Source of the DNA: Longimicrobiales bacterium
GTDB taxonomy: Bacteria; Gemmatimonadota; Gemmatimonadetes; Longimicrobiales; Gaopeijiaceae
Assembly: GCA_951828585.1 (NCBI GenBank)
Contig: OX639991.1
Span: 1,954,576 to 2,018,575, forward strand
Direction: 5' to 3'
DNA: 64,000 nucleotides
How positions within the stretch are numbered: the stretch's first letter is position 1; each line of letters begins with the position of its first letter. The notes below the pieces were generated by a model. The model was not told the origin of the DNA. It ran no database searches and saw only the letters and a program-made list of their open reading frames with translations. This document shows, one piece after another, positions 19,000-33,082 of the stretch. The position numbers were made by a program, and so were the translations under genes.

Positions 19000-19033
19000 G
19001 GGGGGGTGGGGGGCTGCGGCAGCCGCGTGGCAG

Positions 19034-19050
19034 TGTGTAATTCTTACACA
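19034..19050. promoter_or_regulatory. TGTGTAATNNTTACACA operator, copy 1
   Basis: Palindrome with 7-bp arms, preceded by GTGGCAG. No TA gene follows it here. It matches three other sites in the window (25234, 26617, 31200), two of which precede antitoxin genes. The 19000-19263 gap holds nothing else that I can name. Confidence 0.5.
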
Positions 19051-19263
19051 CTCCGAGCGAACCAGCCGATCACCCGCCGGCGCGCGCAACCACCACCGTT
19101 TCCCGGTTTAGCGGTTAGGCCCAATGAACTTCCGTCGCGAGGTAGTCGCGCAGTATGGCCCTAACGACTAGCCCGTCGTCCTGCTCTACCCGGTCCCGAT
19201 AGACCAAGGGATGGACGAGTGGGCACGGGGAACACACGGTAGCGAGGGGTCTCCGTATGTGGC

Positions 19264-19485
19264 CTAGCCGACATGCCGCCCATGCGGCTTGTGGTTCAAC
19301 ACTCTGTGGATGTACCCACCCCGCGATCGCCCCGGTGCCGTGAACTCCGCCCAGACTTCCGGCGGGCACGCCGAATACCTCCACTCCACACCATCAGGGA
19401 ATCGCACATAGATCGTTTCCGTTTCTGGATCGTACGCCTCGGCAACAATTCGGCACGACTCGGTCACGGGCAGCCATTCAATCAT
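19264..19485 (-). CDS. KTSC-domain small protein
   Basis: 73 aa: MIEWLPVTESCRIVAEAYDP ... YVRFPDGVEWRYSACPPEVW ... GGYIHRVLNHKPHGR. This is the KTSC domain (named after lysyl-tRNA synthetase C-terminal similarity). The usual first Ser of V-x-S-S is here SC, and the domain is complete. Start ATG 19485 overlaps the HerA stop (ATGA), so it is translationally coupled as the last gene of the SIR2-HerA cassette. Its role is unknown; RNA binding has been proposed for the domain. Confidence 0.75.
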   Translation of the reverse strand: MIEWLPVTESCRIVAEAYDPETETIYVRFPDGVEWRYSACPPEVWAEFTAPGRSRGGYIHRVLNHKPHGRHVG

Positions 19486-21290
19486 TCTTCCTCCTCCTCT
19501 TCGTATGTTCCTCTCCATGCGGAAAGTGCCGGGCCAACGTCCGGTGTTCGAAGTTGACTACGCCAAGGATCCAACGACGGATCGTCGGCGAGTGGCTTCG
19601 GATCTGGTGGATCTAAGAGGACGCGTGCGGGCAACACGACGGATTCACCACTCACCACACCCTCCCCCGTACGCAATGATGGTAGTGCAGCAGCCAAGCC
19701 TGCCGTTGCATCAGGCAACGCCGCTCGAATCGCACCTTGATCCTCAGCATTCGACAGCCGAAGTGATATCACGGTGCCGCACTGTGCCAGCGCGGTGTCC
19801 GGCAGCTCCGTTGGACGCTGGGACACCAGCAACAGTCCGACACCATACTTCCTTCCTTCTCTTGCGATGCGATTCGCCGCACGACGAGTCAACGCATTGG
19901 CATCGGCACCGAGGTACCGGTGCGCTTCCTCCAATACGATCAGCACTGGGCTAGGGCGCCCAATCCCGGGACCGTCGGCACTACAACGGAGCGCAACTTC
20001 GAATATCAGATTAAGCACAACTCCTATAGCAAGATCTGCCGCAACCGACGACACGCCAGCAAAATCGAGCACAGAAACCGGTTGTTCCCCTCCAAGCCAT
20101 TCCTGCATCACCTCAATCAAGGGATCGTCTCCACAGGGATCACCGCCTGGCTCCTGAAAGAACCGTAGCTGTGGATCCAGCAGTCCGAGCCGAAGCAGGC
20201 TTGGCATCGTTCCGTAGGCACCGTGGTACGGACCCTTGTGCGGCGGTTTGCCACCCGCTGCATATGGCTTGTATACGGATGACCGCAGCTGCGAGGCATC
20301 GCCAACTTCAATTCGGCAGACGCTGTTAGGGTCTCCCTTCTTGTCAAGCGTCTCGGAGTTCTCCTCATCGAGTCGATACCACACGCTTCGAATATCAAAC
20401 GGCACGGGCGTGTCGGATGTCACAGCCGAGGGATCCAGAGAAAGCCACTCGGCATCGCTAACAAACTGACGGCGATGTTCCGTTACAAGCTCCGCGAAGC
20501 GGCTGCGGAACGTCGGCCCACCGCGGGAGCCGCAGAACGTGCTGATGATCTCAGTTGCTGGAAGCGCCCAAAACGGCACCCGCAACTGCGCATCCCCGGT
20601 CGCAAGCACACTCTTGACCGCCGCACGATCCGACAATGCGTGAGGATACTCGCCGTGTGGATCTATGACAACAATATTGGATGCTGACCATCCTTCGCTC
20701 ACAAATCCCTGCAACAACGATGCAACCGCGCTGGTCTTCCCCGAACCTGTAGAACCCACAATCGCCGCATGGCGGACGACAAACCGTGCCACGTCGACGC
20801 ACACCGGTACATCTGTAGCCGCAGCCAACCGGCCCAGGCACAGATGACGAGCGTCTGGATGGGGGAATACAGATTTGAGTTGTTCCGTTGTAGCGAAGTG
20901 AACGGGATCATCGAGCCCCGGATAGGCACCCACGCCTCGCTGAAAGCGTCCGGTGCCCCGATCTATAGACCCAAGCAACTGAACTTGGAGCCAACGTTTG
21001 TCGTGCTGTACGGCTTCCGCAGGCGCCACAGGGCCGGACAGTTCGGCAATACCAACAAGCCCAACCGTTGCGATGAGATCTACCGGTCCTTGTGGAATCC
21101 GGACCAACGAACCGATCTGACCCACAGACTGCAAGCGACCGCGATATATTGGCGCTGTGCCCGCAAGATCGGAATCAAGCGCCACCGTAACAGTAGACCC
21201 TAGCACATGACGAACTTCGCCAATGCGAGTGGGGTCGCGGCCAGTCACGACAATCTCCCGGTGAGGTCGGGGATCGGATTCCGAAACCAC
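19482..21290 (-). CDS. HerA-like ATPase of a SIR2-HerA defence pair
   Basis: 602 aa. The N-terminal HAS-barrel (IGEVRHVLGSTVTVALDSDL ... VGQIGSLVRIPQG) is followed by Walker A IVGSTGSGKTSAV (about residue 175), VVIDPHGEYPHAL, Walker B VLIVLEEAHRYLG, SREGRKYGVGLLLVSQRP-like sensor sequence and an acidic tail of six Glu. HerA forms hexamers. With SIR2 partners it builds an NAD-depleting or nuclease anti-phage complex (known for SIR2-HerA/Nezha). The start is GTG 21290 immediately after the SIR2 stop, so the two are made together. Confidence 0.9.
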   Translation of the reverse strand: MVSESDPRPHREIVVTGRDPTRIGEVRHVLGSTVTVALDSDLAGTAPIYRGRLQSVGQIGSLVRIPQGPVDLIATVGLVGIAELSGPVAPAEAVQHDKRWLQVQLLGSIDRGTGRFQRGVGAYPGLDDPVHFATTEQLKSVFPHPDARHLCLGRLAAATDVPVCVDVARFVVRHAAIVGSTGSGKTSAVASLLQGFVSEGWSASNIVVIDPHGEYPHALSDRAAVKSVLATGDAQLRVPFWALPATEIISTFCGSRGGPTFRSRFAELVTEHRRQFVSDAEWLSLDPSAVTSDTPVPFDIRSVWYRLDEENSETLDKKGDPNSVCRIEVGDASQLRSSVYKPYAAGGKPPHKGPYHGAYGTMPSLLRLGLLDPQLRFFQEPGGDPCGDDPLIEVMQEWLGGEQPVSVLDFAGVSSVAADLAIGVVLNLIFEVALRCSADGPGIGRPSPVLIVLEEAHRYLGADANALTRRAANRIAREGRKYGVGLLLVSQRPTELPDTALAQCGTVISLRLSNAEDQGAIRAALPDATAGLAAALPSLRTGEGVVSGESVVLPARVLLDPPDPKPLADDPSLDPWRSQLRTPDVGPALSAWRGTYEEEEEE

Positions 21291-22391
21291 TCATTCTTCT
21301 CCACGTGGATCAGCACTCCGGGCTAAGAACTTGGCGAGATTGCGGAAGTCACCCATTCCAAACCTACCTTCATTCCATACGTCCGCCGGTGCGTCCCCGG
21401 GATCCCTCCAGCACATGCGGGAGCCCCCAAGGATCGCTTCATTGTCGGCCACTACTTGCAAATTCGGCGTGATCGCCGCGCGTTCCGCGAGTACAGCCGG
21501 TATGTCCCCATAGCAGAATGCGATGAACTCTGAGCGAGCACGTCGCGTTGCGGCATCGAAGATGTGCTCGTTCAAGTGGTCGTCCCCGAAAGAATACCCG
21601 GTGATTAGCAACATTGTCTCGGGCAGATGAAGCGCTCGCCGTAAACGGTCCTGCAGGACAATGAACGGAAGGCGTCGTGATTCGTCGTATTTCGCATCTG
21701 ACGGATAGATAGCGGCCGGGCGTCCGTCCGGAACTGGATGACCCAGGCGTACGACCTGTTGACCATCTCCAGAAACCCAGTTGACGGAGCCATGCAACTT
21801 CCAGAGTCTAACAAAAGAGACGGGGATGGCTTCGGTCTCCGGCGGTCCTGGCAGTTCCTCCACTAGCTCTGTATGAAAGCGCGCTCTTAGAGTACCCACG
21901 AAACCGTCGAAATATGGTGCACGCATGGTTTCCAAAGCTGTCTCAAGCAGTAGATCATAGTTAACCGTGAACAGCTCAATTGGCCTATGATAGTTGGCGC
22001 GTGCCACCCAAGCCGCAAAATGACGTGCGGAAGTTAGATCAATGTCGTCTGGAGTTAGGGCGTTGACGACGGCTCGGCACACCACCTTATCCAGCTCGGT
22101 AGCCATTTCAGTGGTCAGGTCGTCCACGGTCTCGCCGCCCGACACAAGTGCAGCAATGCGCCGAATGCGGCTCAAGGCCTCCTCAAGGCTCCGTCCGGTC
22201 AGTTGCCGACTAAACGCTGTAGCATTCCCATCGTCAAGAACTGTTAGAACATGCTTTTGGAGTTCGGCGATATCCGGTAAGCCGCATGCCTTCCCGACTC
22301 CGGCACCTAAGAAAAAGCACACATGCCTTGACCGGCTGGCGAGCTTCGCGCCGAGGGAGGCGGCGAATTCCATTGGGTGGTGTTCCGTCAT
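21291..22391 (-). CDS. SIR2-domain NADase partner of HerA
   Basis: 366 aa from ATG 22391; an in-frame TTG at 22460 is possible but less likely. HVCFFLGAGVGKACGLPD is the NAD-binding glycine motif, IELFTVNYDLLLETAL carries the conserved Asn-Tyr-Asp, LWKLHGSVNW the catalytic His, and LLITGYSFGDDHLNEHI is typical of the defence-type SIR2 (SIR2_2). Motif GAGVGKA departs from the common GAGAS. In known systems phage infection triggers NAD+ cleavage and abortive infection. Confidence 0.9.
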   Translation of the reverse strand: MTEHHPMEFAASLGAKLASRSRHVCFFLGAGVGKACGLPDIAELQKHVLTVLDDGNATAFSRQLTGRSLEEALSRIRRIAALVSGGETVDDLTTEMATELDKVVCRAVVNALTPDDIDLTSARHFAAWVARANYHRPIELFTVNYDLLLETALETMRAPYFDGFVGTLRARFHTELVEELPGPPETEAIPVSFVRLWKLHGSVNWVSGDGQQVVRLGHPVPDGRPAAIYPSDAKYDESRRLPFIVLQDRLRRALHLPETMLLITGYSFGDDHLNEHIFDAATRRARSEFIAFCYGDIPAVLAERAAITPNLQVVADNEAILGGSRMCWRDPGDAPADVWNEGRFGMGDFRNLAKFLARSADPRGEE

Positions 22392-22529
22392 GGCGACGCC
22401 TAGCGTATGCAGAAACAGGCCGACCAAAGAGCGGTCGAGATCTGTTGTCCGTGTATGCAAGTGTTGAAAACGTGGCGAACGGCGTCTGGAATACTATTAT
22501 GTAAGGCGTCCGGGCCGTTTGTCTGGAAG

Positions 22530-22880
22530 CTATGCAAAATAGTGTTCTCCTGACAGTCGCGACCACGATAACGCCCACACGGGCTTGACAGAAGTGACTT
22601 GTCTGACTCCTTTGATTGGTCGGAGAGTCTTGACGCCCTTTACGGGTTTGATTTGCCTGACGGGTGTTACCGGACCACCACGAGCGGCCGAAGCAAAAAA
22701 CACAGCATACCCGTCTAAGTCCCTTATCCATCCGTTGTCAAACCATCCAATGTGTTTACCCGCAAACGTGTAAACGGCGGTTCCTGACAAATATGCGACT
22801 GGCTTGCCGGAGAAAAGATAGAAGTGTCCCTCGTCATCAGAGTACGCGATTGGTGCGCCTGAACTGCTATAGAAATCCAT
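22530..22880 (-). CDS. 4-fold beta-flower-type small protein
   Basis: 116 aa. Repeated short strands (MDFYSSSGAPIAYSDDEGHF; YLFSGKPVAYLSGTAVYTF; AGKHIGWFDNGWIRDLDGYA) match the pattern of proteins called 4-fold beta flower. A tail of KPVKGVK-RPIKGVRQVTSVKP repeats ends in WSRLSGEHYF. Function is unknown. It lies 138 nt upstream of SIR2 on the same strand and may head the cassette. ISL3 sits 29 nt upstream of its ATG and probably removed its promoter. Confidence 0.65.
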   Translation of the reverse strand: MDFYSSSGAPIAYSDDEGHFYLFSGKPVAYLSGTAVYTFAGKHIGWFDNGWIRDLDGYAVFFASAARGGPVTPVRQIKPVKGVKTLRPIKGVRQVTSVKPVWALSWSRLSGEHYFA

Positions 22881-22909
22881 TGTCGTGCTTGCTTTCTGTT
22901 CTCTTTTGG

Positions 22910-24550
22910 GGTTCTTCCCCTTTTCTGGTGGGTAGCAGGTCATGTGCGCAGGCCATCGGGGTAGAGGTCGAGGCCGCCGAGGTGGAAGAGGATGGCGTTC
23001 GCGAAGCGTTCCCGGTTGCGAAAGCCGCGGCTGCGGACCTTGACTGTCTTGATCCGGCTGTTGATGCCTTCCGCCGGTTCGTTGGTGGCGCGGAGGATGA
23101 TCGCATTGACGATTCCCCACAGATGCTCCCGGATCATCCGGGCGGTTTTCAGGACCGGCTCCAGATCGCAGTCCGATGCCCACTCCAGCCACCGGTGCCA
23201 TCCGGCCAGCGCCCAGGTTCTGCTCCGGTAGTTCCAGAGGTTCGCGGCCGCTTCCTTCAGCTCCCAGGCCTGGGCGGTCCGGCGGGTGCCCGCACGGAGC
23301 CTCGCGAACGCCAGCTTTTCGGCGTGCGTCTTCCGTCTGGGGCCCTTCAGCCACTGCCACTTGGTGCCCACGAGGATCCCGTTGCCCTCCTTCACCAGCG
23401 CCCGGTGCTCCGCCCGCCGGACCTTGTCCACCGCGTCGCCGAGGTGCTTGGCCACGTGGAACCGGTCGAACGCGATCTTCATCACGGCGTCCGGGATCAT
23501 CGCCAGAGTCGCCGAGATGTAGGGCCCCCACATGTCCATGCTGACGCTCTCGACAGCCTCCCGGTACTTCTCTCCCATGCCCTCGTAGAACGCCAGGAGC
23601 ACGTCCTTGCCCCGTCCCGGGGCGACATGCACGACGTGGCCCGTCTCCGGATTCGACACCACGGTCACGTACTGGTGCCGGCGGCGGAACGAGGTCTCGT
23701 CCACCGAAAGGCGCCGAACCGCCTTCGTCTTGCGGCGCGCAAGTCCCCGCGCCACTGCACGTTGCATGATTCCGTCCACCGCGTTCCAGCTCAGCCGCAT
23801 CCGGCTGGCGACCGCCTGTACGCTCGCCACCTTGAGCCACCGGATCACCTCCGCCTCGAACTCCATCGTGTACCTCGTGCTCCCCTCCGCCCACGGCACC
23901 TGAATCGTGACCACCCCGTGCTCCGGGCACTGGACCCGCGGGACATTGCAGACCAGAAAGGTCTTGTAGCCCCAGGCATCCAGGTTCCGCCACTCGCGGC
24001 GGCGCGTATCGTAGCCCGGGCACGCCTCGCCGCAGTGAGGACACCTCAACGGGCTCCCTCCGGTCCGTTGCAACTCCACCCGAAGTTCCTTGGGGTCCCG
24101 GGTCGGCTCCACCCTCGTGACCTTCCACTCCGGACCCAGGCCCAGAACGGCGTCCAGCCAGTCTCTTCCGGCCATGTCTGCGAGTTCCCTTCCGTCTCGT
24201 TGTGGACACCTGCCGGGAGCGAGCGCTCCGCGGCCTGACCACGCAATTTCCTCCGAGTCTCGCGATCCCGAAAGGCAACCCGCTACTCTCCTCCCCGTTC
24301 AGCACCAGCGCCGGTGGCTTCCGCGCCCAACCAAGTCGTTGTGCGAGGAGTGGTCGAGAGGGTCACCCCGGCCGGTCGGCGGCACGTCAGCCTTCGCCGA
24401 AGGGGATCGCCCCTCCCGTCGTCTACTACATCCTCGCTGTTCCACTCTCTCCACCCACGCTCATCCCACCGCCGCTGTTGCGAAAGCCCGCCAACCCGCC
24501 CCATAATTCGACCCTCCCCCTTGCCCGCCCACCACGACAGGGGAAGAACC
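22910..24550 (-). mobile_element. ISL3-family element
   Basis: 1641 bp. The ends GGTTCTTCCCCTTTTCTGG and, reversed, GGTTCTTCCCCTGTCGTGG are imperfect inverted repeats. The 8-bp target duplication tcttttgg lies at 22902-22909 and 24551-24558, the size expected for ISL3. The duplication is perfect, so insertion is recent or unrearranged. Confidence 0.95.
22940..24175 (-). CDS. ISL3-family transposase
   Basis: 411 aa. The N-terminal zinc-finger-like CPHCGEACPGYDTR-RREW and later CPEHG is followed by an HTH (VASVQAVASRMRLSWNAVDG) and the DDE_Tnp_ISL3 domain with LSVDETSFRRRHQYVTVVS (Asp), VSMDMWGPYISATL (Asp) and the late Glu in TNEPAEGINSRIKTVK. It appears complete and active. Confidence 0.95.
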   Translation of the reverse strand: MAGRDWLDAVLGLGPEWKVTRVEPTRDPKELRVELQRTGGSPLRCPHCGEACPGYDTRRREWRNLDAWGYKTFLVCNVPRVQCPEHGVVTIQVPWAEGSTRYTMEFEAEVIRWLKVASVQAVASRMRLSWNAVDGIMQRAVARGLARRKTKAVRRLSVDETSFRRRHQYVTVVSNPETGHVVHVAPGRGKDVLLAFYEGMGEKYREAVESVSMDMWGPYISATLAMIPDAVMKIAFDRFHVAKHLGDAVDKVRRAEHRALVKEGNGILVGTKWQWLKGPRRKTHAEKLAFARLRAGTRRTAQAWELKEAAANLWNYRSRTWALAGWHRWLEWASDCDLEPVLKTARMIREHLWGIVNAIILRATNEPAEGINSRIKTVKVRSRGFRNRERFANAILFHLGGLDLYPDGLRT

Positions 24551-24558
24551 TCTTTTGG

Positions 24559-25233
24559 TTGGTCCCGTTACCAACCATCACCTACGTGACGGGGAGCCGG
24601 GGCTGTTGTCAACGCTCAAACTAACACGTCGGCGGATTCGGGTCGAGGGGGGGACGTGCCCTCTCGCCGCGGCGGTCGTTTCCTCAGCTCAGGAGAGTTC
24701 GCGGAGGTGGCGAGGTGGTCACGCGAAGTGATACTGCTGGAGAGCGGCGGCGGCGTGTCGAAGTTGTCGACGCTCGTCGAGTTCACGCTATCGGCGCTGG
24801 CGAGCCCGGCAGTCACGAGGGCGCCGCAAAGGGGGCCACGGGGTGACGCAAGCGAATGTCCGCCATCTGGCCCGGTTTCCTCGCCATTTTGGACCGACGG
24901 ATCTGAATCCAACAGTGGCGACGAGACGGCAGATCGTGAAGTCCTGGTTAGACGTCGGAGAGTTCTTGCCGGGAATTGCGTTAGCGATTGGGGGGCCTGA
25001 TAAGCGTGAGGTCGGTAATCCAAGTCTACCGAGCCCAATGGACTTACGGGGTTCCGGGGGTCGGATTCCCGCCAGGAATGCGCTAGAAAAAGCCCCTTCG
25101 GCGGTGTTCAGAAGACCTTCCGGAGGTGGTGCGGATCGGCTCGCAAGTAGCACTGGAGCATCGTCCTGGCCCACTCTTATGGGGTCTGCGTAGTCATCGT
25201 CATGGGGCTCAGGGGCTGGCAGCCGGGTGGTAG
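24559..25233. other. Gap without a recognisable gene
   Basis: About 670 bp between the ISL3 duplication and the operator at 25234. Both strands have ORFs of 115-140 codons but they are Arg/Ser/Pro-rich, overlap each other antisense and match nothing that I know. It may be an old remnant of the region ISL3 entered. Confidence 0.4.
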
Positions 25234-25250
25234 TGTGTAATCCTTACACA
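25234..25250. promoter_or_regulatory. TGTGTAATNNTTACACA operator, copy 2
   Basis: The palindrome is followed by CACGCTGAGACATGTTGGAGG, which resembles the leader behind the copy at 31200 (CACACTGGAACACCTTGGGAGG). The TA gene that should follow is missing; the beta-propeller gene's 3' end comes next. It is a beheaded TA promoter. Confidence 0.5.
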
Positions 25251-25337
25251 TCACGCTGAGACATGTTGGAGGAGAGCAACCGCCGGAGGCATCTTCGCCC
25301 TCCAGACCCTCCGAATCGGACCACGCAAACCACCCAG

Positions 25338-26429
25338 TCACCCCCCCGCCCGCCCAACCACCACCGTCTCCTGGTCCAGCTCGTCGAAATGCAGAAACAC
25401 AGCCCTGTCCCCCGACACATCCAGAATCCGCGCCGTCCCGCCGAAACCAAGCCTCCCCTCCCGAACCCACCCACCCCCCGACTCCCCAAACACATGAAAC
25501 ACCGTCGATTCGTCCACCGTTTCCACGATCCACAACGACCCCTCCCGGCTCGCGAGCATCCCGCGCAAACCCCGCAGCGGCAACCCCGCCAGCTCCACCG
25601 CATCTCGGGACAATTCGCTCGCACCGTCGCCCGCACGATAGGCGGACACCTCCAGCGAATCCCCGCCGAAGGTCGCCACGAACAGCCGTTCCCCTCCTCC
25701 GGCAATCGTCGCCCAGGCGGCATGTTCGTCGCGAATGAGCTCGAAGGATCCCGTATCGGGCCCCCGCTCCCACAGTCCGTGAGGGACGCGGGCGACCGTG
25801 TTCGAGACACCACCCTCGGCGGTCACTTCGAGAACGGCCACGGTGTCGCGGGCTTTCGTGCCGGGCGGCGTGGCCAACCCCATGAGCCCGGGCGGCGTCC
25901 CCAATGACAGCGCCGCCCAGACCCTCGCGCCCATCCGGGTCATCGCCGCGACGTCTCTCCCCCGGCCCCCGTCCCCGGGCAGCGTGAAGATCCGGCCGAA
26001 GTCGCCCGATCGGGAAAAGACGGAGAAGCGGCCGAGACTCATGTCGTATGCCAGCAGCGAGTCCGGGCCGTGGGGTTCCAGTGAGACCGGCCGCCCGAAC
26101 TCGCCCGGCCCCGAGCCTCGCCTGCCGATGCGGCTGGTCCGCCCACTGCCGATATCGTATCGAATGAGTTCGCCATCGCCTCCGTTGACCAGGTAGACGG
26201 CGTCCCTCTCGTTGTCGAGGACGGCATCGAATACCCGGTAGAAGGGTGGCTCATCCCACATCGGGCCGCTCCCCAACACGGCGACCGTGTCGATGCGGTC
26301 CCACGGGAGCTGGCTCGGATGGACGTCGCCGGCGGGCAATTCGGCGCCCGGCGGATCCGGATCCCCCACGCCGTCGGCTACCGGCATGACCAGCAGCATG
26401 GACATCATCGCGCGGGCCAAACTGGTCAT
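25338..26429 (-). CDS. 6-bladed beta-propeller protein, duplicate A
   Basis: 363 aa. A hydrophobic leader (MTSLARAMMSMLLVMPVA) precedes repeated blades: VFDAVLDNERDAVYLVNGGD, GRRGSGPGEFGRPVSLEPHG, DSLLAYDMSLGRFSVFSRSG and ASREGSLWIVETVDESTVFH. The GxGPGEF motif is typical of the NHL-like 6-bladed family, usually secreted and of unknown ligand. A near-identical copy lies at 28378-29475. Confidence 0.75.
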   Translation of the reverse strand: MTSLARAMMSMLLVMPVADGVGDPDPPGAELPAGDVHPSQLPWDRIDTVAVLGSGPMWDEPPFYRVFDAVLDNERDAVYLVNGGDGELIRYDIGSGRTSRIGRRGSGPGEFGRPVSLEPHGPDSLLAYDMSLGRFSVFSRSGDFGRIFTLPGDGGRGRDVAAMTRMGARVWAALSLGTPPGLMGLATPPGTKARDTVAVLEVTAEGGVSNTVARVPHGLWERGPDTGSFELIRDEHAAWATIAGGGERLFVATFGGDSLEVSAYRAGDGASELSRDAVELAGLPLRGLRGMLASREGSLWIVETVDESTVFHVFGESGGGWVREGRLGFGGTARILDVSGDRAVFLHFDELDQETVVVGRAGG

Positions 26430-26533
26430 GGCTGCATCCTCTGGTTTGGGAGTCCTACTCTATGGTGGCGATCCACGACAATCACGGTTCGCTCCGGTAG
26501 AGCCTGGTCGGCCAGAGCCGGCAGGTCAAGCGC
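25338..26533 (-). repeat. Direct duplication, unit A
   Basis: This roughly 1.2-kb segment (beta-propeller gene plus about 100 bp upstream) is repeated at 28378-29580 in the same orientation. Scattered substitutions show the copies are not fresh. The AbiE and VapBC genes lie between the units. Confidence 0.9.
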
Positions 26534-26616
26534 CTGGCCGATGACGAGGAGAGCTTTCCCCAACCCCCTCAGCCCCGCCACTGCGCGATGGTTCTCAGTT
26601 GCCAACCACATGGCAG

Positions 26617-26633
26617 TGTGTAATCGTTACACA
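26617..26633. promoter_or_regulatory. TGTGTAATNNTTACACA operator, copy 3
   Basis: Lies 51 nt upstream of the AbiEi antitoxin start. The preceding 20 bases, TTGCCAACCACATGGCAG plus flank, match those before the site at 31200, so a whole promoter-operator block is shared by two unrelated TA operons. Confidence 0.6.
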
Positions 26634-26684
26634 CCCCAGAGTCTTCGACGGACGCTTATATTGGGCTTACCGAGTCGACTTGCG

Positions 26685-27299
26685 ATGGAGAACGCGGACG
26701 CGATGAACAGCTTGCCCGAGCGGATAATGGAGTATGCCGAGGCCAAGCCGGAGGCCACGCCGACACAGGCGGACAATTTCCTGCACCTCGGCGACCGGGC
26801 AGCGGTGGCTCGGGCGCTATCCCGTCTCGCCCGGTCGGGGCGGCTCCTACGGATTTGCCGTGGGGTCTACATGCGTCCGATCCAGACGCGTTTTGGTCTT
26901 CGCGGACCGAGTCTGGAGCAAGCCATCACCGCGCTCGCGGGCCTCTGGGGTGAGACCATCGTGTCAAACGGCGGAGACGCGGCCAACTGGCTCGGTCTTA
27001 CGACGCAGAACGCCGTGCGCACGGTCTATCTCACTTCCGGTCCCGACCGACTCCTGCATTTCGGGGCCCACCAAGTCAGACTGCTCCATGCTCCGCGTTG
27101 GCAGCTGGCGGCCGGGCAAGGAACCGCCGGCACCGTCATCCGGGCGATCTCGTGGCTCGGTCCCCACGAGGTTGAGAGGAGCCTGGATGCCGTGCTGCCC
27201 AAGCTCTCGCGGAAGGACATGGACGAACTGGTCGCCGCACAGGCCATCCTGCCCAAGTGGATGGCGGAGCCGCTGAGCAGGCGTCTCGCACATGCCTGA
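26685..27299 (+). CDS. AbiEi-type antitoxin (type IV TA)
   Basis: 204 aa from ATG 26685 (a second ATG at 26703 is also possible). An N-terminal winged HTH (HLGDRAAVARALSRLARSGR; LLRICRGVYMRP) is followed by the AbiEi C-terminal domain (VSNGGDAANWLGLTTQNAVR, TVYLTSGPDRLLHFG). AbiEi represses its operon and counteracts a nucleotidyltransferase toxin. Its last 8 nt overlap the toxin gene, which is internally deleted, so the antitoxin is now an orphan. A TGTGTAA palindrome upstream is the likely operator. Confidence 0.8.
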   Translation: MENADAMNSLPERIMEYAEAKPEATPTQADNFLHLGDRAAVARALSRLARSGRLLRICRGVYMRPIQTRFGLRGPSLEQAITALAGLWGETIVSNGGDAANWLGLTTQNAVRTVYLTSGPDRLLHFGAHQVRLLHAPRWQLAAGQGTAGTVIRAISWLGPHEVERSLDAVLPKLSRKDMDELVAAQAILPKWMAEPLSRRLAHA

Positions 27300-27513
27300 G
27301 GTCCAATACCATCGTCTCCCGGCAGCGGAGAAGCGCGAGGCCCTGCAGGCGGCGGCACTGCTCTGCGGTCGGCGGACCCAGCTTCTCGAGAAGGATGCCA
27401 CCATGTTGCCCACCGGGATGTTGCTGGACGACGATGAGCCGTTTGACTCCTTGATGGAGCGATGCGCGATGCTCGAGACGAGGGCCAACGCTCCCTGGAA
27501 GATGGATGAGTAG
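27292..27513 (+). pseudogene. AbiEii toxin with in-frame internal deletion
   Basis: 73 codons. The first part, YHRLPAAEKREALQAAALLC...RTQLLEKD, is the N-terminus of AbiEii/AbiGii nucleotidyltransferase toxins. The second, MLPTGMLLDDDEPFDSLMER CAMLETRAN, is their C-terminus. The roughly 200 residues between, including the catalytic GGTxL and DxD motifs, are gone, yet the frame is kept. The product cannot transfer nucleotides. It might still bind the antitoxin. Confidence 0.75.
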
Positions 27514-27615
27514 CCCGGCCATGGACGTCATACCTCTGGGTGACGAGGCGATCGACAGCCGGTCCTACTCTGCCTCGCCGCCATCGGCTGCCGATCGCCC
27601 CCGCGGCGGCCTCCA

Positions 27616-28044
27616 TCATGGACCGACCCCCGACCAGGGATCGATCACATCCAGTCCCGTACCCTCGAAATCTCGCACGTTGCGCGTGACCAGAGTGGCT
27701 CCGCGTGTGCGGGATATCGCGGCGATCTGGCAGTCGGCCTCGCCGATTGGCCGGCCCGCGTGTCGGCGCTCGGAAGCGATCTCCGCGTAGGCTCTGGCCG
27801 CGGCGCTGTCGAACGGCAGGATCCGTTCTCGAAAGCCGAGTTCCAGCCAGCTTGTCATGGCAGCCTCCAACGCGTTCCGCCGTTTGCCGGTCGGCATAAT
27901 CGCGACGCCGTAGAGGAGCTCAGCTTCGCTCAGGGCCGTCAGGTACATGTCCTGCGCATCGCGCTCACCGATCCATGCTGCTACCGCGGTTGCCGGTTCG
28001 GGGCGCATGAGTTCGGACGCGACATTCGTATCTATGACGAACAT
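27616..28044 (-). CDS. VapC/FitB-type PIN toxin
   Basis: 142 aa. MFVIDTNVASELMRPEP (Asp), LSEAELLYGVAIMPTGKRRN (Glu, with FitB-like GxxxxPxGKRR), GEADCQIAAISRTRG and LVTRNVRDFEGTGLDVIDPW complete the acidic site; the third acidic is E/D in GEADC. It is intact and close in type to the toxin at 1297 but clearly different in sequence. It begins 6 nt after its antitoxin stop. Confidence 0.88.
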   Translation of the reverse strand: MFVIDTNVASELMRPEPATAVAAWIGERDAQDMYLTALSEAELLYGVAIMPTGKRRNALEAAMTSWLELGFRERILPFDSAAARAYAEIASERRHAGRPIGEADCQIAAISRTRGATLVTRNVRDFEGTGLDVIDPWSGVGP

Positions 28045-28050
28045 GGAAGC

Positions 28051-28296
28051 TCAGGAGAAATCCGGAGGCTCGCGCATCGGGCCGCGCGGGGGCAGTTCAA
28101 GTTCGACGCCGCCAAGTGACGCGAAGCACTGGCGGGTGAACGTCGCGAGATTCCGCGGACCGGCGCGACGGTCAGTCACGGCTTCACGCAGGATGATTCG
28201 GGCTTCTTCCTCCATCGAACGGTGATGCTCGGCGGCGCGTACGCGAAGGCGCGTCTTAACGTCGTCGTCGAGATTGCGGATCGTGATGCTCGCCAT
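28051..28296 (-). CDS. FitA-type antitoxin
   Basis: 81 aa from ATG 28296 (GAGG about 8 nt upstream). MASITIRNLDDDVKTRLRVR followed by HHRSMEEEARIILREAV is the ribbon-helix-helix fold of FitA/StbC antitoxins. The C-terminal ELPPRGPMREPPDF is the flexible toxin-binding end. It is the first gene of the pair. Confidence 0.88.
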   Translation of the reverse strand: MASITIRNLDDDVKTRLRVRAAEHHRSMEEEARIILREAVTDRRAGPRNLATFTRQCFASLGGVELELPPRGPMREPPDFS

Positions 28297-28377
28297 TGGC
28301 CGTGCCTCCTCGTGGTGCGGAACGTGCGGACAAGCTATCGCGTGATTGCAGTGCAATCAAGAGCACGGCAGACCCCA

Positions 28378-29475
28378 TTACGGCCTCACAGCCGCCCGCC
28401 CAACCACCACCGTCTCCCGGTCCAACTCGTCGAAACGCAGAAACACAGCCCTGTCCCCCGACACATCCAGAATCCGGGCCGTCCCGCCGAAGCTGAGCCT
28501 CCCCTGCCGAACCCACCCACCCCCCAACTCCCCAAACACGTGAAACACCGTCGATTCGTCCGCCTCTTCCACGATCCACAACGACCCCTCCCGGCTCGCG
28601 AGCATCCCGCGCAAGCCCCGCCGCGGCAACCCCGCCAGCTCGACCGGATACCGGGCCAATTCGCCCGCACCGTCGCCCGCACGATAGGCGAACACCTCCA
28701 GCGAATCCCCGCCGAAGCTCGCCACGAACAGCCGTCCCCCTCCTCCGGCTATCGTCGCCCAGGCGGCATGTTGGTCGCGAATGAGCTCGAAGGATCCCGT
28801 ATCGGGCCCCCGCTCCCACAGTCCGTGAGGGACGCGGGCGACCGTGTTCGAGACACCACCCTCGGCGGTCACTTCGAGAACGGCCACGGTGTCGCGGGCC
28901 TTCGTGCCGGGCGGCGTTGCCAACCCCATGAGCCCGGGCGGCGACCCCAATGACAGTGCCGCCCAGACCCTCGCGCCCATCCGGGTCACCGCCGCGACGT
29001 CTCTCCCCCTGCCCCCGTCCCCGGGCAGCGTGAAGATCCGGCCGAACTCGCCCGATCGGGAAAAGACGGAGAAGCGGCCGAGACTCACGTCGTATGCCAG
29101 CAGCGAGTCCGGGCCGTGGGGTTCCAGCGAGACCGGCCGCCCGAACTCGCCCGGCCCCGAGCCTCGCCTGCCGATGCGGCGGGTCCGCCCACTGCCGATA
29201 TCGTATCGAATGAGCTCGCCATCGCCTCCGTTGACCAGGAAGACGGCGTCCCCCTCGTTGTCGAGGACGGCATCGAATACCCGGTAGAAGGGTGGCTCAT
29301 CCCACATCGGGCCGCTCCCCAACACGGCGACCGTGTCGATGCGGTCCCACGGGAGCTGGCCCGGATGGACATCGCCGGCGAGCATTTCGGCGTCCGGCTG
29401 ATCCGGATGTCCCCCACCGCCGGCTACCGGCATGACCAGCAGCATGGACATCATCGCGCGGGACAAACTGGTCAT
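28378..29475 (-). CDS. 6-bladed beta-propeller protein, duplicate B
   Basis: 365 aa, nearly the same as the protein at 25338-26429, with substitutions such as AGGGGHPDQP for ADGVGDPDPP in the leader and RYPVELAGLPRRG for RDAVELAGLPLRG in the blades. It ends RAAVRP where copy A ends RAGG, so the duplication boundary lies at its 3' end. Both copies keep open frames, so both may be used. Confidence 0.75.
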   Translation of the reverse strand: MTSLSRAMMSMLLVMPVAGGGGHPDQPDAEMLAGDVHPGQLPWDRIDTVAVLGSGPMWDEPPFYRVFDAVLDNEGDAVFLVNGGDGELIRYDIGSGRTRRIGRRGSGPGEFGRPVSLEPHGPDSLLAYDVSLGRFSVFSRSGEFGRIFTLPGDGGRGRDVAAVTRMGARVWAALSLGSPPGLMGLATPPGTKARDTVAVLEVTAEGGVSNTVARVPHGLWERGPDTGSFELIRDQHAAWATIAGGGGRLFVASFGGDSLEVFAYRAGDGAGELARYPVELAGLPRRGLRGMLASREGSLWIVEEADESTVFHVFGELGGGWVRQGRLSFGGTARILDVSGDRAVFLRFDELDRETVVVGRAAVRP

Positions 29476-29580
29476 GGCTGCATCCTCTGGTTTGGGCGTC
29501 CAACTCCATGGTGGCGATCCACGACAGCCTTGGTTCGCTCCGGTAGAGCCTGGTCGGCCGGAGCCGGCAGGTCAAGCGCG
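28378..29580 (-). repeat. Direct duplication, unit B
   Basis: Second copy of the segment at 25338-26533. Similarity continues past the start codon to GCCGGCAGGTCAAGCGC near 29580, then ends. Confidence 0.9.
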
Positions 29581-29922
29581 CCCAGGGGACCCAGCCTCCC
29601 ATGTCCATGAAGAATATCGCACGTAACGAAGTGAACCATTAGATTCAATGCGACCGACTCCGATACCGGCTGTCGCGGGCGGCACTGTTCCTCCACCCGG
29701 TTTCGCGAATCGGCGTTCCGCCCAGGCCGATTTCCGACACTCCCGAACCCAAGCCACCGAGACAGGGGTTGACACGACGATGACCTTGACCGCCCACAGG
29801 TGTGTCCCAGTTCGTCTTCGTGGCTGGCGGCCGGGTTCCAGGAACCTGTGAAGAACGGCGAACCCGCAGGCGCAGAAAGTCATATCCAATCGGGGCAACC
29901 TGACGTTTTGAAACTCCCCCCC

Positions 29923-31083
29923 ATGCCCTCAGCCTATGTCGACGGCTACCCCAAGGCGCGCGCGATCGACCGGGAGACCGCGGACAACTACATCGCGCAC
30001 ACCCATATCGGCGATCCGGTCATGGACGCGATCGTGGAGGACCTGGCGGGGCTGCCTCAGAGTCGGGTCCACCAGCTCATTAGCGCGGGGATGGACGAGG
30101 ATCGCGATGGTCTCAGGAACGCGCCGCAATCGCTGCGCGATTTCTTTTTCGACGCGCCGCCGCCCGATCCGGAGTGGCTGGATCAGTCTGCCTTTCAGCC
30201 GGGCGTCCGGTCCTTTCAGAGAAACTCCGTCCTCGTCCTTTCGGCCTTCGTGGCGGGCGTGCTGATCGACGGCTTTTCGACGCTGATAGCCAAGTCGTTC
30301 GTGCAGACCGGGCGGATATTCGACAACGGTGTCTGGCGGCTCAAGCAGAACAACCGCCATCAGGTGGAGATCTTCCTGCCCGGCGGGCTGGAACGGTTCG
30401 GCGAGGGGTGGAAGCTGTCGGTCCGCATCCGGTTCGTCCACGCGCAGGTTCGCAGACTGTTGGGACAGAGGGAGGAGTGGGAGCACGACGCGTGGGGCGT
30501 GCCCCTCAGCGCCGCGCACATGGGCTACGCGGTCGCCTGCTTCGCGGCCCGCACCGTCAAGCACTCGGAGTCGCTGGGCGCGCGGTACAGTCCGGAGGAG
30601 CGGGCCGGTTTCCATGACGTGTGGCGTTACGCCGGCCACCTCATGGGCATCCCGGATTCCATCCTCTTCACCGACGAGGAGCACGCGCTGCACCTGTACC
30701 GGATCGGTTCCATTTGCGAGCCTCCTCCGACCGACGACGCGATCGTCATGACCAATGCGCTGATCAACTCCGCCCCTCTGGTCGCGAACATCGATGATCC
30801 GGTGGAACGGCGCAAGCTGGTGAACAAGGTCATCTACCCGGTTTCCCGGGCGCTGGTGGGCAAGGATCTTTCCGACCAACTGAACTTCCCCAGGACGAGG
30901 GGCATGCCGTTCCCCTTGCTCGCGTACCGGATCGACCAGCGCATGCAGCGGATCAAGGCCTGGACAATGAAGGGCGGATTCGGGGCTTTCGCGGACCTTC
31001 TTGGGGCGTCGGCCTATGAGGACGCCGGTCTCAGCTACCGGTTGCCCGACCACGCCCACGACGAACTGTCCACCAAGTGGTGA
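29923..31083 (+). CDS. MpaB-type oxygenase (rubber-oxygenase-like heme protein)
   Basis: 386 aa from ATG 29923; a GTG at 29848 with AGGAAC upstream is an alternative. THIGDPVMDAIVEDLAG, VLSAFVAGVLIDGFSTLIA, FAARTVKHSESLGARYSPEE and DVWRYAGHLMGIPDSILFTD follow the ER-bound oxygenase MpaB/latex-clearing-protein fold (DUF2236), which binds b-type heme through His residues. The oxidised substrate cannot be told. It stands alone between TA genes. Confidence 0.8.
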   Translation: MPSAYVDGYPKARAIDRETADNYIAHTHIGDPVMDAIVEDLAGLPQSRVHQLISAGMDEDRDGLRNAPQSLRDFFFDAPPPDPEWLDQSAFQPGVRSFQRNSVLVLSAFVAGVLIDGFSTLIAKSFVQTGRIFDNGVWRLKQNNRHQVEIFLPGGLERFGEGWKLSVRIRFVHAQVRRLLGQREEWEHDAWGVPLSAAHMGYAVACFAARTVKHSESLGARYSPEERAGFHDVWRYAGHLMGIPDSILFTDEEHALHLYRIGSICEPPPTDDAIVMTNALINSAPLVANIDDPVERRKLVNKVIYPVSRALVGKDLSDQLNFPRTRGMPFPLLAYRIDQRMQRIKAWTMKGGFGAFADLLGASAYEDAGLSYRLPDHAHDELSTKW

Positions 31084-31199
31084 GGCGGCGTTTCCGAACC
31101 CCATGAGCCCGGGCGGCGTCCCCTGATGACCCGAACTCGCCCGAACCCGAGCCGCGCCTGCCTATGCGGCCGGTCCACCCATTGCCAACCATGTGGCAG

Positions 31200-31216
31200 T
31201 GTGTAATCGTTACACA
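31200..31216. promoter_or_regulatory. TGTGTAATNNTTACACA operator, copy 4
   Basis: Lies 29 nt before the antitoxin ATG at 31246, with GGGAGGAAC as ribosome-binding site between. The left flank (TTGCCAACCATGTGGCAG) equals that of copy 3. This copy is in the expected place for antitoxin autoregulation. Confidence 0.65.
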
Positions 31217-31245
31217 CCACACTGGAACACCTTGGGAGGAACAAC

Positions 31246-31479
31246 ATGGCCAAGCGGGTCAACTTCATGCTGGACGACGACTCCTGGCGCGTCATCGAGC
31301 GGCTGCCGCGCGGCACTCGCAGCCGCGCCGTCAACGCCGCGATCCGGAACTGGGCTGGCACTTCCATGAGACAGGACGCCGCAGCCCGGATGGATGCCCT
31401 GCGCGCACGCTTGCCCGCGGTCCGGACCGACAGGATCGTCGAGTGGATTCGCGAGGGGCGGGAGCAGGGACTGCCGTGA
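31246..31479 (+). CDS. Ribbon-helix-helix antitoxin
   Basis: 77 aa: MAKRVNFMLDDDSWRVIERL, then TRSRAVNAAIRNWAG (helix pair) and a polar tail. It is the DNA-binding antitoxin of the PIN pair; its stop overlaps the toxin GTG (GTGA). The TGTGTAA palindrome upstream is its probable binding site. Confidence 0.75.
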   Translation: MAKRVNFMLDDDSWRVIERLPRGTRSRAVNAAIRNWAGTSMRQDAAARMDALRARLPAVRTDRIVEWIREGREQGLP

Positions 31480-31898
31480 TCGTAACGCCTGACGCATCGG
31501 TCCTTCTGAAGTGGGTGCTTCCCGGGAACGACAAGCAGGACACGGACGCGGCGCTCGCACTGCGTGACGGAGCGGTGGCCGGGACCATCGACCTGGTCGT
31601 TCCCCAGCTTTGGATCTACGAGGTGGGCAACACGCTGGCGAAGCGGTTTCCGGACGATGCCGGCGAGATATTGGCTTCGCTGTCCGACTTCGGCCTGACC
31701 GAGGCGCCACCGGACTCCGACTGGACAGTCCGCGCCGTTTCCCTGTCCGTGAAGTACGGAGTCACATTCTGCGGCGCGGCGTACCATGCCGTGGCGCTTG
31801 GCCTCGGGGGTGTGTTCGTTACGGCGGACGAACGATACGTGCGTCGCGCCTCGCCGGCCGGGGGCGTCTCGTCCCTGCGGCTCTGGCAAGCCGGGTGA
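31476..31898 (+). CDS. PIN-domain toxin (VapC)
   Basis: 140 aa from GTG 31476. IVTPDASVLLKWVLPGND (Asp), LWIYEVGNTLAKRFPDDAGE (Glu), GVTFCGAAYHAVALGLGGVF and FVTADERYVRRA outline a PIN domain of the VapC type. The third acidic position, usually YDAxYVALA, reads CGAAYHAVAL, so one catalytic Asp appears replaced by Gly. Activity may be reduced. Confidence 0.8.
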   Translation: MIVTPDASVLLKWVLPGNDKQDTDAALALRDGAVAGTIDLVVPQLWIYEVGNTLAKRFPDDAGEILASLSDFGLTEAPPDSDWTVRAVSLSVKYGVTFCGAAYHAVALGLGGVFVTADERYVRRASPAGGVSSLRLWQAG

Positions 31899-33082
31899 CG
31901 GGAATCAGGTTGTCCGCGGGCGCTCTGGCGGCCCTTCTCATCCCCACTTCGGCCGCCGCGCAGCAGCCCGGGCTGTCCGGCTACTACCTGAACGTCGGGA
32001 CTCACGTCGCGGAAAGCCTGCTCGGGTCCGCCGGAGCCTCCGACGTCCAGCGGCTGCGCGTCATGTGGAACGCGTCACCGGGGCCGTTTCGACTCGACGC
32101 GGCGTACGAGCATACGCTGACCCTGCGCCAGGCCGGGACCTCGGTGGGCGCGCAGCTTTTCACGGCGACCGGGACCGAAACCGGAGGCGACTGGCTGCCG
32201 CTGGACGGCGAGATCGAGTCGAGCGACCGGATGTTGTGGCGACACCGGGTGGACCGGCTCAACGTGCGGGTCGACCTGGGCGCCAACGCCGACCTGATCG
32301 TGGGACGGCAGCCCGTCTCGTGGGCGACGACCCTCTTCCTCACCCCCGCCGACCCCTTCTCCCCCTTCGACCCTGCGGACCCCTTCCGCGAATACCGGGC
32401 CGGCGTGGACGCGGCGCGGCTGCGCGTCTACCGGGGCGCGTTCACGCAGTTCGAGGTGGTGGCGCGGATCGGCGCGCGGGAGAGCGTCACCGTGCTCGGG
32501 CGGGTGAGCTCCAACGTCGGCGGCTGGGATCTGGGCACGTGGGGCGGTGTGGTGCACGACACCCCTGGCGCGGCCGCCTTCCTGAGCGGGTCGGTGGGGC
32601 TGTGGGCGCTCCGGGCGGAGGCCGCGGTGCGCGAGGACGGCAGCTCGGTCGCGTTGCGGGGCGCGGTGGGAATGGACCGCACCTTCGCGGTGGCCGGGCG
32701 CGACCTGTACCTGGTGGTCGAAGTGCAGCGCGACGGGTTCGGGGCGACCTCGCCGGCGGGATTGCTTGAGGCGGCGGGGAGCCGCGCGTTCTCCCAGGGC
32801 GAGATGCAGGTGCTGGGGCGCGAGGTGGGGGCCGTGCAGCTCTCGTACACGCTGCATCCGCTGGTGTCGGCGAGCGGCCTGGTGCTGGGCAACTTTCGCG
32901 ACGGGTCGTTTGTTGCTTCGCCGGGGGTGAACTGGTCGGTGTCGGAGAGTGTGGCGGTTCGCGTGGGGGCGTACTTCGGGGTGGGGGAGGGGGTGATGGT
33001 GGATGGGGGGGATGTGGGGCTGGGGTCGGAGTTCGGGGCGCTGCCGAGGGTGGTGTTCGGGTCGTTGAACTGGTTTTTCTAG
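31895..33082 (+). CDS. Putative outer-membrane beta-barrel protein
   Basis: 395 aa from GTG 31895. A signal peptide (RLSAGALAALLIPTSAAAQQ) precedes alternating amphipathic strands (DLIVGRQPVSWATTLFLTPA, LYLVVEVQRDGFGATSPA, SVAVRVGAYFGVGEGVMVDG) and the C-terminal FGSLNWFF, whose final Phe is a barrel-assembly signal. The substrate is unknown. The GTG overlaps the toxin stop by 4 nt, so this envelope gene now depends on the TA operon for expression. Confidence 0.65.
   Translation: MTGIRLSAGALAALLIPTSAAAQQPGLSGYYLNVGTHVAESLLGSAGASDVQRLRVMWNASPGPFRLDAAYEHTLTLRQAGTSVGAQLFTATGTETGGDWLPLDGEIESSDRMLWRHRVDRLNVRVDLGANADLIVGRQPVSWATTLFLTPADPFSPFDPADPFREYRAGVDAARLRVYRGAFTQFEVVARIGARESVTVLGRVSSNVGGWDLGTWGGVVHDTPGAAAFLSGSVGLWALRAEAAVREDGSSVALRGAVGMDRTFAVAGRDLYLVVEVQRDGFGATSPAGLLEAAGSRAFSQGEMQVLGREVGAVQLSYTLHPLVSASGLVLGNFRDGSFVASPGVNWSVSESVAVRVGAYFGVGEGVMVDGGDVGLGSEFGALPRVVFGSLNWFF

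Follow-up and report, generated by a model that had tools for sequence, protein, structure and literature searches.

A 64,000-nucleotide stretch of the genome of a Longimicrobiales bacterium (Gemmatimonadota, Gaopeijiaceae; assembly GCA_951828585.1, contig OX639991.1, positions 1,954,576 to 2,018,575), referred to here as the window, carries genes for a SIR2-family nicotinamide adenine dinucleotide hydrolase (NADase) and a HerA/FtsK-type ring ATPase, followed by a small overlapping gene for a KTSC-domain protein. KTSC is a core part of the branch of SIR2-HerA systems typified by the solved complex 8wld, in which it is usually split off as a translationally coupled gene. This is indicated by the near-universal linkage of KTSC to HerA within the branch together with the presence of a KTSC domain in the solved HerA. 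The locus is probably a SIR2-HerA abortive-infection cassette of the 8wld type, in which KTSC has been detached as a coupled 73-amino-acid subunit that would dock on the HerA ring and control its engagement. The defence pair is of an already known kind, whose solved version has KTSC fused to HerA; the variation seen here is that KTSC comes from a separate gene that overlaps the HerA gene. A preliminary description of the window, made from the sequence alone, had placed KTSC outside the described system. That view has to be abandoned, since HerA of the solved complex ends in a KTSC domain and nearly all members of the branch have KTSC beside HerA.

The open reading frames for SIR2, HerA, KTSC and an upstream 4-fold beta-flower protein are all intact and run in one direction on the minus strand, in the order and at the positions that the preliminary description had given them. 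The first gene of the cassette (21291-22391) encodes a SIR2-family protein of 366 amino acids, whose start is most likely the ATG at 22391, judging from the starts of its homologues, with a TTG reading from 22460 as the alternative. Its stop codon abuts the GTG start of the HerA gene (19482-21290, 602 amino acids) in the sequence TGAGTG, and the HerA stop in turn overlaps by four bases (ATGA, 19482-19485) the ATG start, at 19485, of the KTSC gene (19264-19485, 73 amino acids). SIR2 scores 346 bits with the PADLOC SIR2 model and 51.7 bits with Pfam SIR2_2 (cut-off 24.5); HerA scores 416 bits with the PADLOC HerA model and contains the Pfam DUF87 and HerA_C domains; the KTSC protein is above its family threshold, with 34.3 bits against Pfam PF13619 (cut-off 25). 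These matches and the two junctions bear out the earlier proposal of a SIR2-HerA cassette with a translationally coupled KTSC. The catalytic residues of SIR2 (N144-Y145-D146 and H200) are kept and are invariant across the aligned homologues, as are the intact Walker A (GSTGSGKT) and Walker B (VLEEAH) motifs of HerA. The best matches of the two large proteins are the chains of a solved SIR2/HerA complex, 8w9l for SIR2 (E=1.2e-43) and 8wiv for HerA (E=3e-97). The locus has the features of a type-8wld system, namely SIR2 homology with the catalytic asparagine and histidine, a co-directional and adjacent HerA with its motifs, and an accompanying KTSC. It misses the equivalog cut-offs of NCBIfam SIR2_antiphage (48 of 500 bits for SIR2) and HerA_antiphage (207 of 850 and 160 of 800 bits for HerA), and none of the PADLOC and NCBIfam models covers the KTSC gene of the cassette.

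The HerA chain of the solved complex itself contains a KTSC domain. A KTSC profile searched against the PDB hit residues 628-696 of HerA in 8wiv and in six sister entries (E=1.1e-24), along with two stand-alone KTSC structures. No other HerA chain in the PDB gave a KTSC hit, and this HerA chain and its SIR2 partner are the same chains that best match the HerA and SIR2 of the window. The AlphaFold model of the window KTSC has a mean predicted local distance difference test (pLDDT) score of 95 and matches known KTSC structures with Z-scores of 12.2 (4rgi) and 11.7 (7x8c). It also superposes on HerA residues 613-696 of 8wld, 8wof, 8wj3 and 8wiv (Z 9.7-10.8, root-mean-square deviation 1.5-1.8), so the KTSC domain is ordered in the maps of the solved complex. 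Other fold neighbours of KTSC (kindlin, CPAP and the Spt5 KOW domain, as well as a polo-box in Foldseek) have Z-scores of 4 or less and were not used.

The linkage of KTSC to HerA was assessed in a branch set of 112 HerA genes at or above 400 bits (three records are present twice in the full set), 100 of which were found through HerA alone, without the use of KTSC. KTSC lies downstream of HerA on the same strand, or is fused to it, in 110 of the 112 loci; for the 100 obtained via HerA the count is 98. This linkage spans many bacterial phyla and the haloarchaea. The preliminary description had proposed absence of the small genes beside most homologous SIR2-HerA pairs as a check, which KTSC survives. 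Even the two exceptions hold KTSC sequence by HerA: in one (L036) the KTSC start is at the usual ATGA overlap with an interrupted frame, and in the other (L058) the KTSC gene is present beside HerA in inverted orientation. When genomes were scanned with a HerA profile, 77 of the 79 loci obtained had KTSC after HerA, and of the plasmid loci reached by a HerA-only tblastn search, the six that were opened all have KTSC directly after HerA (Methylocystis, Paraburkholderia, the archaeon Natrinema, E. coli, Rhizobium and Pseudoalteromonas). HerA and KTSC form a single open reading frame in four loci (L062, L077, L084 and L276). Where the genes are separate, leaving out two loci with a broken HerA frame, their spacing ranges from -34 to +26 nucleotides and is mostly -8, -4, -1 or 0. 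A second, diverged SIR2-HerA-KTSC cassette is found about 1.5 Mb away in the same genome (L196, at about 500 kb of G000:C1). Distances between homologues correlate across loci (n=97) for HerA and KTSC (r=0.87), HerA and SIR2 (r=0.94), and SIR2 and KTSC (r=0.79). Linkage, fusions, the ordered domain and this correlated divergence together assign KTSC to HerA. Every branch locus with enough sequence has SIR2 as its effector; a nuclease in its place was not seen among the 112 loci, where two loci lacking SIR2 end at a contig edge. Nor was there, among the loci examined, a KTSC gene placed upstream or standing alone with SIR2. In Natrinema zhouii (L006:7783-8875) KTSC overlaps with a split gene for an ADP-ribosylglycohydrolase, which could act on the products of NAD or ADP-ribose chemistry.

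Linkage to KTSC is a mark of one branch of HerA. In a sample of 596 genomes (349 of Pseudomonadota and 247 of Bacteroidota), 12 of the 13 HerA copies above 440 bits have an adjacent KTSC, the thirteenth being a truncated HerA (L313), and a HerA fragment of the same branch at a contig edge (G836:C114) also has an adjoining KTSC. More distant copies in the same genomes, below 360 bits, have an adjacent KTSC in 0 of 16 cases, of which six were opened and confirmed as lacking KTSC, while for the rest the genome-wide search for KTSC served as evidence. Within the phylum of the window, SIR2-HerA pairs from other branches (L200-L204 and L207) likewise have no KTSC, even at a very loose threshold. KTSC of any kind occurs in 41 of the 349 Pseudomonadota genomes (12%) and in 42 of the 247 Bacteroidota genomes, and most of the KTSC genes and regions fetched have no HerA nearby. 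Since KTSC is uncommon and mostly found away from HerA, the dependence runs from HerA to KTSC. Elsewhere KTSC has other neighbours. On a Halorubrum plasmid (L289:2789-4713), genes for an E2-like protein, the E1-like ThiF and KTSC follow one another, and the KTSC gene overlaps that of ThiF by 4 nucleotides, in the manner of its overlap with HerA. ThiF is also annotated next to KTSC at two further hits (H47 and H49), so several conflict systems may have KTSC as an accessory. In an archaeon (Haloferax, L294:4501-6652) and an actinobacterium (Streptomyces, L295:1363-3483) a KTSC gene directly precedes the gene for an AAA-family ATPase of about 620 amino acids, which is possibly a second recurrent partner.

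The boundary between HerA and KTSC in the window has a dual character. The 17 bases before the KTSC start (minus strand, 19486-19502) form a Shine-Dalgarno-like stretch, GAAGAGGAGGAGGAAGA, that lies within codons of HerA. It encodes the acidic HerA tail while resembling a strong ribosome-binding site for KTSC, with an anti-Shine-Dalgarno duplex energy of -11.3 kcal/mol compared with -2.6 kcal/mol at control positions. In the fused genes the KTSC part still starts with a methionine codon preceded by a ribosome-binding-like stretch (-6.4 to -10.5 against about -2.8 kcal/mol for controls), a suggestive comparison that covers four loci, two of them close relatives, with controls not matched for purine-rich linkers. 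Because the methionine codon and the strong ribosome-binding-like stretch are kept at the KTSC boundary, the fused genes could make free KTSC as well as the fused form. A wider proposal, possible if rather doubtful, is that the machine of this branch has three components, free KTSC being a regulatory subunit of the ring supplied in a dose of its own, with the fused genes perhaps making both forms, and that KTSC is perhaps a module that can be added quite generally to defence ATPases and E1-like enzymes. The last part is suggested by the ThiF and AAA neighbours.

By homology with the solved complex and from reviews of it, SIR2 would form a two-layer dodecamer that stacks on the HerA hexamer and would degrade NAD+ on phage infection. 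KTSC would bind the HerA ring where the fused domain sits, at roughly one copy per HerA subunit. From there KTSC would control the engagement by the ring of DNA or of another phage cue. The engaged complex would activate the SIR2 NADase, leading to hydrolysis of NAD+ and arrest of the infected cell. Docking of KTSC on the HerA ring is very likely; gating of the engagement of DNA or a cue by KTSC, and thereby of SIR2 activation, is put forward more tentatively and falls somewhat short of an even chance. NAD+ depletion and phage protection by the window cassette are predicted. Two points weigh against this explanation: we infer the role of KTSC, be it gating, assembly or cue binding, and the distance correlation is a matter of co-inheritance, not of contact.

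Two other roles have been considered for KTSC. The first is that of a nucleic-acid sensor for RNA, a tRNA-like ligand or DNA, as KTSC has been described as RNA-binding (PMC7824862) and as DNA-binding (PMC9503650), two of its residues (R55 and R70) are largely kept basic and HerA is a DNA motor. However, the net charge of KTSC is negative (median -3 over 108 domains, -2 in the window protein), no specific relative that binds nucleic acids rises above background in the fold search, and the literature searched yielded no KTSC binding data. A sensor is therefore an unlikely role, and the suggestion in the preliminary description that KTSC binds RNA or a tRNA-like ligand gains no support from these mostly acidic domains. 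In the second, which is less probable again, KTSC is a dissociable, antitoxin-like brake, the free protein keeping HerA-SIR2 inactive until it is taken away by a phage product. In favour of this role, KTSC is small and made separately, and in most members its gene has a strong ribosome-binding site, as is often the case for antitoxins. However, KTSC that is permanently fused to HerA, as in the four fused loci and the solved complex, is unable to leave, and KTSC was never seen upstream or alone with SIR2.

The beta-flower gene (minus strand, 22530-22880, 116 amino acids) is a neighbour of the cassette and is judged not to be a component. It matches Pfam PF21784 (Bflower), whose fold is described in PMC10584680, over the whole domain (residues 2-115, 123.9 bits, cut-off 25). 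The preliminary description had seen in it a trigger or immunity partner, and a place as fourth component could be argued from its location on the same strand of the same island, 138 bp upstream of SIR2. However, it is not coupled to SIR2, and with a profile that recovers known beta-flowers it is absent from 111 of 111 other loci of the HerA branch, one of which is the further cassette of this genome; here the proposed check of absence beside most homologues goes against the earlier suggestion. Its nearest relatives are in unrelated settings, on plasmids of Methylobacterium, Variovorax and Pelagibacterium and in a Rhizobium phage near terminase genes. Its guanine-plus-cytosine content is 51%, compared with 58% in the SIR2-HerA-KTSC genes (67% in the adjoining insertion sequence and in the whole window). 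Membership in the cassette is thus very improbable and was rejected on the lack of recurrence and the settings of its relatives; the gene takes no part in the mechanism and is best seen as one more passenger on the variable island. Weaker still, and refuted by the locus counts, is the idea that KTSC itself stands beside HerA by chance or as a hitch-hiker, for although KTSC genes do occur without HerA, such a reading is at odds with the HerA-found loci, the fusions, the solved chain and the rarity of KTSC in Pseudomonadota genomes.

The split gene would have practical consequences. Descriptions and tests of SIR2-HerA usually treat it as two genes, and if the separate KTSC is a needed subunit, clones of the two large genes, or annotations limited to them, would miss part of the machine in this branch. 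The split KTSC, which is the commonest natural form, is also a built-in route to test the C-terminal domain of HerA.

The cassette lies in a variable island (19005-31915) that also holds the beta-flower gene, an ISL3-family insertion sequence, an AbiEi-type antitoxin gene and a FitA/PIN toxin-antitoxin pair. In 6/6 genomes of the same genus the sequences that border the island in the window, at about 19.0 and about 31.9 kb, are joined with only a short gap between them, so the 12.9-kb island is an insertion in this genome. The ISL3 element (minus strand, 22910-24550), which has 23-bp inverted ends, lies 29 bp upstream of the beta-flower start and is not a component of the cassette. It is flanked by a perfect 8-bp target duplication, TCTTTTGG, at 22902-22909 and 24551-24558, and is a later insertion. 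A palindrome, GTGTGTAANNNTTACACAC, occurs in four copies in the window (19033, 25233, 26616 and 31199; one mismatched) where none is expected; the whole 4.47-Mb genome has only five exact sites, three of them within the window. One copy is upstream of an AbiEi-type antitoxin gene, and the palindrome may be an operator that is carried along with modules of this kind. The island also has a recent duplication, a pair of very similar genes (25338-26429 and 28378-29475) that each encode about 364 amino acids with no Pfam match.

Among known systems, the solved complex represented by 8w9l, 8wiv, 8wld and 8wof, which we take to be from Paenibacillus and the work of Liao et al. 2024, is homologous over nearly the full length of both SIR2 and HerA, and its HerA ends in a KTSC domain. 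It differs in that KTSC is fused there, whereas the window has a separate overlapping gene. The SIR2-HerA complexes 8j4u and 8yhx, presumably from E. coli and S. aureus, and the type covered by NCBIfam SIR2_antiphage and HerA_antiphage share the two-gene logic of SIR2 and HerA. However, they are distant (HerA only 96 and 75 bits), and the KTSC profile search of the PDB detected no KTSC domain in the HerA chains of 8j4u and 8yhx. In HerA-DUF4297 (PMC12198126) a HerA ring likewise activates an effector oligomer, but the effector is another one, and within the PDB KTSC is detected only in HerA of the 8wiv group. The single sentence of PMC9503650 that calls KTSC DNA-binding also gives HerA-KTSC with an endoDNase in the place of the sirtuin; KTSC is a partner of HerA in both cases, whereas the effector here is SIR2. 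The loci of Methylocystis and Paraburkholderia have the same three genes in the same order, with HerA 70-71% identical, but are plasmid-borne and come without the beta-flower gene or ISL3.

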